Shown: positions 29,881 to 32,109 of the stretch, piece after piece
How the letters are laid out: each line of letters starts with the position of its first letter
Numbering within the stretch: position 1 is the first letter of the stretch
NCBI RefSeq assembly: GCF_902498745.1
Contig: NZ_LR701479.1
Location: 1,368,292-1,432,291 of the forward strand
Reading direction: 5' to 3'
Origin: Erythrobacter sp. EC-HK427
Lineage (GTDB): Bacteria; Pseudomonadota; Alphaproteobacteria; Sphingomonadales; Sphingomonadaceae
DNA: 64,000 nt
Program-made: the position numbers and the translations under genes
The notes under the pieces: generated by a model
Told to the model about the DNA's origin: nothing
The model's input: only the letters and a program-made list of their open reading frames with translations
Databases searched by the model: none

Positions 29881-32109
29881 ATGAGTGAAAAGCCGACAAA
29901 ATCAGACTGGCACGAAAAGGCTGCCAAGGAAGTCAAAGGCCGTGACCTGACCTGGCACACGCCCGAGGGCATCGCCGTGCAGCCGCTCTACACGGCAGCG
30001 GACGCGCCTGCGGAGCCTGCCATGCCGGGGTTCGAGCCGTTCACGCGCGGCCCCTATGCCTCGATGTATACCGGCCGCCCGTGGACGATCCGGCAATATG
30101 CAGGCTTCTCCACCGCCGAGGAATCGAACGCCTTCTACCGCCGGAATCTGGCGGCAGGCCAGAAGGGGCTGAGCGTCGCGTTCGATCTCGCTACCCACCG
30201 GGGTTATGACAGCGATCACCCGCGCGTTGTTGGCGATGTCGGCAAGGCGGGCGTCGCCATCGATACCGTGCGCGATATGGAAATCCTGTTCGACTCTATC
30301 CCGCTCGATGAAATGTCCGTCTCCATGACGATGAACGGCGCGGTCATTCCGGTGATGGCGTTCTATATCGTCGCGGCGGAGCGTTCTGGCGTGAGCGCGG
30401 ACAAGCTCAGCGGCACGATCCAGAACGACATCCTCAAAGAGTTCATGGTGCGCAACACCTACATCTATCCGCCCGAGCCATCGATGCGGATCGTCAGCGA
30501 CATTATCGCCTACACCAGCGCGCATATGCCGCGTTTCAACAGCATCTCGATCAGCGGCTACCATATGCACGAGGCGGGGGCGACGGCGGTGCAGGAGCTG
30601 GCCTTCACCATTGCCGACGGCAAGGAATATGCGAAGCGCGCCATGGCCACCGGCCTCGATATCGACGCCTTCGCGCCGCGCCTCAGCTTCTTCTGGGGCA
30701 TCGGCATGAATTTCTTCATGGAAATCGCCAAGATGCGCGCCGCGCGCACTTTGTGGCACGAGGTGATGACCGAATTGGGCGCGAAGGACCCCAAGTCGAA
30801 GATGCTGCGCACCCATTGCCAGACGAGCGGCGTGAGCTTGCAGGAGCAAGACCCCTACAACAACGTTATCCGCACCACGCTGGAGGCGCTCTCGGCAGTG
30901 CTGGGCGGCACGCAGTCGCTGCACACCAATGCGCTGGACGAGGCCATCGCGCTCCCCACCGACTTCTCCGCCCGTATCGCCCGCAACACGCAGCTGATTC
31001 TGCAAGAGGAATCGGGCGTGTGCAACGTTGCTGATCCGCTGGGCGGTTCCTACTATATCGAGGCGCTGACCGCCGAGATCACCGAGAAGGCCCGGGCGCT
31101 GATTGCCGAAGTCGACGCGGCAGGCGGGATGACCGCCTATGTCGCATCCGGCGCGCCCAAGGCGGCGATTGAAAGCGCGGCGGCGGAAAAGCAGGCGCGG
31201 ATCGACAAGGGCGAGACGGTGATTGTGGGCGTGAACAAATACCGCCTTGCCGAGGAAGCCGCGCTCGACACGCTCGATATCGACAACCATGCGGTGCGCC
31301 AGAGCCAGATCGCGCGGCTCGAAGCAGTGCGGCAGGGGCGCGATGAGGCAGCGTGCCGCGCGGCGCTGGAACGGCTTACGGAAGTAGCCACTCAAAACCC
31401 CGTTCGCCCTGAGCCTGTCGAAGGGCTGTCCTTGTCTTCGGAAGAAAAGGGCAGGGCTTCGACAAGCTCAGCCCAGTCGGATTTAGAGAACAATTTGCTG
31501 GCAGCGGCCGTCGAAGCTGCGCGCCATGATGCGACTTTGGGCGAGATTTCCTCCGCGATGGAAGCCGCCTTTGGCCGTTACGACACCGTGCCCACCCCCG
31601 TAAAAGGCATTTACGCTGCCGCTTACGAAGGCGATGCGCGATACGCGCAAGTGGTCGCGGGCGTGGAGGCGGTGGCGCGGCGGCTGGGCCGCACCCCGCG
31701 TCTGCTGGTCGCCAAAATGGGGCAGGACGGGCATGATCGCGGGGCGAATGTAATCGCTTCCGCCTTTGCCGATATGGGCTTCGATGTGCTGTCGGGCCCG
31801 CTGTTCCAGACGCCCGAAGAAACCGCACAAATGGCGCTGGACAACCAGGTGGACGCGGTGGGCGCGAGCTCGCTCGCGGCAGGGCACAAAACGCTGATCC
31901 CCGAACTGATCCGCCATCTGCGCGATGCGGGCCGCGCGGATATCAAAGTGGTGGCAGGCGGCGTGATCCCGCCGCAGGACTATGATTTCCTCAAATCCGC
32001 AGGCGTGCAGGGCATTTACGGCCCCGGCACCAATGTGGTGGAAGCCGCCGCCGATATGCTGCGCCTGCTCGGCCACAATATGCCGCCAGCAGGGGAAGAG
32101 GTGGAGTGA
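29881..32109 (+). CDS. scpA: Methylmalonyl-CoA mutase, with an in-frame repeat insertion
   Basis: Adenosylcobalamin enzyme that isomerises (R)-methylmalonyl-CoA to succinyl-CoA. The 742-aa protein has a TIM-barrel domain (about 1-490: [42 protein letters not shown]) and a C-terminal B12 domain (about 605-740) with GQDGHDRG (H618, the lower cobalt ligand), the GASSLAAGH loop and GPGTN. Between them, about residues 505-535 read [15 protein letters not shown]...RASTSSA, the translation of an inserted palindromic repeat, which explains why the protein is longer than the usual 710-720. Complete otherwise, so probably active. The stop overlaps the next gene (GTGA). Confidence 0.95.
31399..31485. 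repeat. CTGAGCTTGTCGAAGG-type inverted repeat, copy 2, in frame inside the mutase gene
   Basis: Arms CCTGAGCCTGTCGAAGGGCT and GGGCTTCGACAAGCTCAGCC surround a short spacer. Sequence and flanks match the intergenic copy at 29782-29873. It adds about 28-30 codons without disturbing the frame, in the linker between the catalytic and cobalamin domains. Confidence 0.9.

Follow-up and report, generated by a model that had tools for sequence, protein, structure and literature searches.

REPINs are inverted dimers of short palindromes present in tens of copies per genome, mostly outside genes. Single REPs can also lie inside open reading frames: they were reported in several species in 2013, including in TruB of E. 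litoralis and S. alaskensis, and flexible linkers or loops were suggested as neutral sites for them (PMC3733652). In the sections considered, that article names one case of site reuse (different REPs at about the same recB site in two Xanthomonas), cites RPE-1 in TruB of Rickettsia conorii, and describes the CGTC-1 class by its CGTC tag, 8-bp stem with A-T at the first two positions, 4-nt loop and mostly CCA tail. Rickettsia palindromic elements (RPEs), about 150 bp long as first reported (PMC10969869), occur in frame in many genes and were judged compatible with protein structure (Ogata 2000/2002, Claverie and Ogata 2003, as cited in PMC3733652, PMC6649704 and PMC10969869).

The window analysed here, a stretch of 64,000 nucleotides from the 3.14 Mb genome of Erythrobacter sp. 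EC-HK427 (G000), carries a methylmalonyl-CoA mutase gene (29881..32109, + strand) with an open frame of 742 codons, which matched Pfam MM_CoA_mutase (PF01642) and B12-binding (PF02310) and aligned to solved methylmalonyl-CoA mutases; among the matches listed, the closest named mutases were from Aurantiacibacter and Erythrobacter (Sphingomonadales). Between the barrel and the B12 domain lies a palindromic repeat dimer with CCG...CGG ends, hereafter family A (31400..31480, + strand; 81 bp, the length of 27 codons, encoding about 27 residues). Its left arm, CTGAGCCTGTCGAAGG (31409..31424, + strand), reads E-P-V-E, and its right arm, GCTTCGACAAGCTCAG (31456..31471, − strand, where it is CTGAGCTTGTCGAAGC), reads ASTSS on the + strand. 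The initial annotation had noticed an inverted repeat in this linker and had stated that the frame stays open, and both observations held: the two arms are present and the mutase frame is uninterrupted. The alignment with related mutases that it proposed gave a linker 90 nt longer in the window than the 99-nt form of relatives, and the linker was short in 15 of 29 loci from the genus.

The second copy which the annotation had placed between genes was found upstream of the mutase (29780..29872; 93 bp) and aligned with the mutase insert nearly end to end, with one large loop gap. The “same flanks” attributed to the two copies were only partly so: CCG and CGG are shared, but these are mostly the outer ends of the element itself and recur in nearly all two-arm copies of family A. 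A family A dimer also precedes the mutase in G013 and G023, and in G007 at another distance. Descent of the insert from the neighbouring copy was not upheld, as this is only the third-best match among the copies of the genome (L287, inside TruB, and L299 score higher). A further intergenic palindrome (29210..29307) was assigned by eye to family B (CTTCAGGGGAGGGG type), which in G004 and G019 occupies the mutase gene itself. Rfam membership was rejected: the 17 matches between 29000 and 35500, at E up to 1, were all well under the gathering score.

The view that the element is a mobile repeat and not convergent sequence was confirmed genome-wide. The arm 16-mer, with at most one mismatch, occurred 50 times in forward and 50 times in reverse orientation (reversed control pattern, 0 matches); with at most two mismatches, there were 4 arm matches in the window versus none in five shuffled windows. 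Fifty-five clusters were counted in the fetched stretches and two in the window, about 57 copies or part-copies at the two-mismatch threshold. The 55 comprised 42 two-arm, 10 single-arm and 3 three-arm clusters; all 42 two-arm clusters were in forward-reverse order, spanned 48-100 nt (37 of them 70-87 nt) and were evenly spread over the three reading-frame classes (14/14/14). Family A thus resembles REPINs in its closely paired inverted short palindromes and many copies. It is also alike in its mostly extragenic placement: in 20 ORFs extending at least 120 nt past a cluster on both sides, Pfam domains on both sides were found for TruB, a 2-oxoacid dehydrogenase E2 (probably the pyruvate dehydrogenase E2) and HrpB, which with the mutase bring to 4 of 57 the clusters that lie in frame and have a recognised domain on either side. 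For DapB and a GIY-YIG protein, Pfam matched one side of the cluster only, so that the repeat probably precedes the gene start. Copies in frame are therefore a rare minority among recognised genes; 15 of the 20 ORFs had no Pfam domain, and genes unrecognised in this way could hide more. A difference from the REPIN/RAYT system is that no Y1/RAYT transposase was found alongside the repeat: a PF01797 (Y1_Tnp) profile search gave 0 matches in this genome and was positive in 5 of 14 control genomes, on which grounds mobilisation by a resident RAYT was rejected. PF01797 was present in 3 of 40 genus genomes. By inspection, family A does not fit the CGTC-1 layout, as the bases after CGTC are CT.

The linker was then compared across relatives. 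In the set from the GTDB genus, 31 of 40 genomes had a match (in G022, only a repeat-like peptide), giving 29 loci with both domains: 15 with a short linker, 6 palindromic and 8 long without a palindrome, the latter carrying GV.LPPSQ or a close variant. The palindromic linkers held family A (L001, L002, L013), family B (CCCCTTCAGGGGAGGGGGTTGGGG type; L003 and L014) or family C (GTCCCCGCGCAGGCGGGGACC; L006). A draw from the GTDB family (199 genomes, 181 with a mutase, 147 of these examined) added family D (CCTCCCC..GGGGAGGGGGACCATGCGCAGCATGGTGGAGG), and 29 of its 149 complete loci were palindromic (L210, cut by a contig end, was dropped). Together, leaving out the partial L030, there were 174 distinct loci, two each from G043 and G199: 123 short, 31 palindromic, 10 slightly longer (SIENN) and 10 long (PLPPS). 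Thirteen palindromic linkers belonged to A, 12 to D (two of them, L151 and L232, assigned by eye), 3 to C and 2 to B, and one (L205) held D and A pieces together. All 31 inserts lie between the same two anchors, which short linkers separate by just a few codons. The insertion in the window is thus real, and it is not a single event: a dispersed repeat sits there in frame, it is missing in relatives, and the same few codons took other families in different species.

Eighty further loci came with names. Among L048-L110, the 61 without Sphingomonadales in the title (L049 and L064 are named Sphingomonadales) all had linkers of 99-111 nt, and the short form was therefore taken as ancestral. Three long repeat-like linkers (L037, L040 and L042; 198-228 nt) were seen in L031-L047, in other Sphingomonadales outside the 174, and the same repeat families recurred at the peptide level among the best 120 of 7992 protein matches. 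Three individual cases deserve mention. In L224 (G106) the linker measures 336 nt, versus 99 in the short form, and its family A insert has apparently grown by tandem repetition to about three units, still in frame. In L014 (G019) a repeat peptide of the RVERSRD type immediately precedes the mutase, the first 33 residues are unaligned and a stop falls inside the match; the start of the gene may have been remodelled. In G022, where the mutase search matched nothing else, an open frame of 825 codons contains a repeat-like peptide (C22:87594-87737), perhaps another in-frame insertion.

All 174 linkers were divisible by three and free of stops. Of the three frames of the forward arm, one contains TGA and two are open; in genes (mutase, TruB, HrpB and E2) 22 of 22 forward arms were read as E(P/L)VE and none as LSLSK, and the 19 reverse arms as PST(S/G)S (15) or LRQAQ (4), never as FDKLS. 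In the null set, drawn from one genome only (40 dimers elsewhere in the genome of the window, 100 open frames), 49% of frames gave E(P/L)VE and 32% FDKLS. The probability of 17 of 17 two-arm inserts in E(P/L)VE is 5e-6 if they are independent, though some share ancestry and the events are fewer than 17. The inserts were also more hydrophilic than the null frames (mean GRAVY -0.88 versus -0.46, a value reached in 0 of 20000 resamples). Frame bias and hydrophilicity argue for translation of the inserts and for the removal of unsuitable frames by selection at the protein level. Mapped onto 8gju and 2xij (human), the best of the solved relatives, the insertion site falls between residues 532 and 535. 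In an AlphaFold model, used as supporting evidence only (45 sequences, mean pLDDT 68.8, other low stretches such as 313-390), residues 508-532 had pLDDT below 50, whereas the helices on either side (489-504 and 539-548) reach 95-97 in blocks of 10 residues.

It is highly probable, in our judgement, that a resident REPIN-like family A dimer transposed into the mutase gene and was kept as a harmless frame in a permissive interdomain turn. The miniature repeat would have landed in a harmless reading frame within the helix-flanked turn, only a few codons long, on the way from the catalytic barrel to the B12 domain, where the insert would lengthen a disordered hydrophilic spacer without harm to the enzyme. 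Selection would leave repeat copies only in loops that tolerate such a spacer, and recurrence would follow from repeats that move often and a proteome that offers few permissive loops.

An adaptive origin of the recurrence is possible and, on the present evidence, unlikely: the mRNA hairpin would slow translation or stabilise the message, or a longer spacer would tune domain motion. Inserted linkers do fold better than shuffled ones (mean z -3.5, -5.1, -3.7 and -6.8 for A, B, C and D, respectively), apart from the A inserts of L141 and L150, which fold no better than shuffles, and long linkers of the PLPPS type exist at the same site. The location of the E2, TruB and HrpB inserts, likewise between Pfam domains, would also suit this explanation. 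Against it, most loci do without an insert (123 of 174 are short), the PLPPS linkers show no hairpin signal (mean z 0.09 against shuffles), and tolerance accounts for the same data, so a role for hairpin or spacer is not needed to explain them. The PLPPS linkers (L004, L005, L007-L012, L142 and L149), with GV.LPPS.. or a close variant, are patchy on the mutase tree (at least 7 changes). The same folding result gave no support to reading them as decayed palindromes.

Inheritance of one old insertion, later overwritten by other repeats through recombination or repeatedly lost, would imply few true insertions, and it seems quite unlikely in view of the mutase tree (FastTree, mutase alone, linker columns removed; starred branches have support of at least 95). 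At least 24 changes between palindrome and none were required, and starred branches force 12 changes for A, 8 for D, 3 for C and 2 for B; these counts come from a one-gene tree in which parsimony is blind to gain versus loss, and they may be too high if related strains have exchanged linkers by recombination. The smallest starred group with the window mutase has four members, carrying A, B, C and an empty linker. The empty member (L015, from G008) and the empty linker of G013, starred sister of the filled G023, are close relatives without the insert, of the kind the annotation had suggested looking for. Family A was hardly more clustered on the tree than shuffled labels. Some loci do favour shared descent: D is present in both L158 and L232, which group with support 100, the A inserts of L146 and L147 are nearly identical, and L205, combining D and A pieces, could record overwriting. 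Other neighbours on strongly supported branches differ, being A and empty (L162/L284, L145/L192 and L002/L016) or A and D (L154/L156, support 100), and the uniformly short linkers of the 61 loci titled without Sphingomonadales, together with the two arm orders seen within A, are hard to reconcile with a single insertion.

The sequences of the families point the same way. In local alignments, A and C were no more like the other families than shuffled letters, and B and D were weakly alike (median score 27 versus 17 shuffled; 47-115 within families), which is why three unrelated groups were counted and not four. By this comparison, the four families at this one site represent three or more groups of unrelated sequence, and the mutase linker looks like a recurrent landing pad for palindromic repeats.

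The inserts would also derive from the own repeats of each genome, judging from copy numbers in 24 genomes picked mainly for filled linkers. Genomes with a D linker had 1-31 D matches (median 9) versus 0-9 (median 0) elsewhere (13 versus 11 genomes; p=1.5e-4, and 2e-4 with the linker copy subtracted). C behaved likewise (p=0.017; 0.02 subtracted), and A did so weakly (p=0.04; 0.05 subtracted), since most of the 24 genomes have many A copies. The subtraction assumed one linker copy in G066 and two arms in each of G077, G092 and G107. There were two counter-examples: G019, with 9 D matches yet B in the linker, and G054, with 41 C and 72 A matches yet D in the linker.

Inserts of the same kind were sought in four other genes by inspecting the 30 best-scoring genus loci of each, a choice that biases the rates (TruB and PccA had matches in all 40 genomes, and E2 and HrpB in 38 of them). 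Repeat-derived inserts were recognised in 5 of 30 loci for the TruB loop, 8 of 30 for the HrpB loop, 2 of 30 for the E2 linker, and 2 of 30 plus one remnant for PccA. The HrpB loop held A (L401-L403 and L405), C (L406 and L407) or a further in-frame palindromic family outside the four of the mutase linker (GTCGAGCG.AGTCGAGAC; L404 and L408). The TruB loop held A (L338, L339 and L342), a D-like element (L343) or, in G002 (L340), CGTCATCCCCGCGAAGGCGGGGATCCA, which fits the CGTC-1 description; the E2 linker held A (L368 and L369). In the window, the propionyl-CoA carboxylase alpha gene (33082-35235) carries a second in-frame palindromic insert (34204..34324, + strand; L111) with 23-nt arms, 91% complementary and 75 nt apart, in the biotin carboxylase region, where 27 of 30 genus loci had no recognisable repeat. 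At the same place G017 has a different palindrome (L112) and G004 an A remnant (L113). The hairpin z against letter shuffles was weak for L339, L342, L403 and the PccA remnant. These inserts indicate a class of reused loops and not the mutase alone, which disposes of the mutase as a unique hot spot; its linker is the member best documented here.

A hot spot at the DNA level, in which the transposition machinery would favour some local sequence or structure of the gene, is very unlikely: the placement of all 31 mutase inserts between the same two anchors is what it would predict, but the site is used by families with different ends, and family A also entered the TruB, HrpB and E2 loops. A chance palindrome or convergent GC-rich linker with no mobile repeat has practically no probability left, even though linkers in these genomes (those of E2, for instance) are often rich in Pro, Ala and Gly, since the copy number, with its null reversed and shuffled controls, refutes it.

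The preferred reading, transposition of a resident repeat into a tolerant turn, also sets the locus beside the intragenic systems. With RPEs it shares in-frame insertion in genes, here mutase, TruB, HrpB and E2, TruB being common to both; the order is another one, and the comparison covers placement in genes. The comparison with Rickettsia made in the initial annotation is hence supported for an in-frame insertion in an interdomain linker, but Rickettsia is not the sole precedent, given the TruB REPs published in 2013 (PMC3733652). Family A resembles the intragenic GTAG/CGTC REPs of that article in lying within ORFs and in having TruB as a target, without the CGTC layout, and no mutase is named in the sections considered. 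Unlike in the Rickettsia case, a single site has here taken up several repeat families, in many species. Among the matches listed in the open-licence literature without supplements, no paper was found for the family A arm as text, for repeats in the mutase linker or for one site reused by many repeat families across many species, which is weak evidence of absence. In-frame REPs were already known; judged new on this literature are the scale of the phenomenon and the use of one site by multiple families.

The mutase linker offers a natural replicated experiment in the conversion of selfish DNA into protein, with four families at the same few codons and sister species with empty linkers serving as controls. 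The question of neutral or useful inserts, already posed for Rickettsia, can now be tested directly in bacteria that live freely and can be cultured. The data suggest that housekeeping enzymes contain translated peptides of repeat origin, which bears on annotation and on linker engineering. More speculatively, and with rather low probability, Sphingomonadales proteomes may have a small fixed set of landing-pad loops that take up unrelated selfish palindromes time after time, and in the mutase this traffic may be favoured and not just tolerated, the hairpin or the hydrophilic spacer aiding domain folding or motion; if so, mobile repeats would supply core enzymes with linker peptides again and again.
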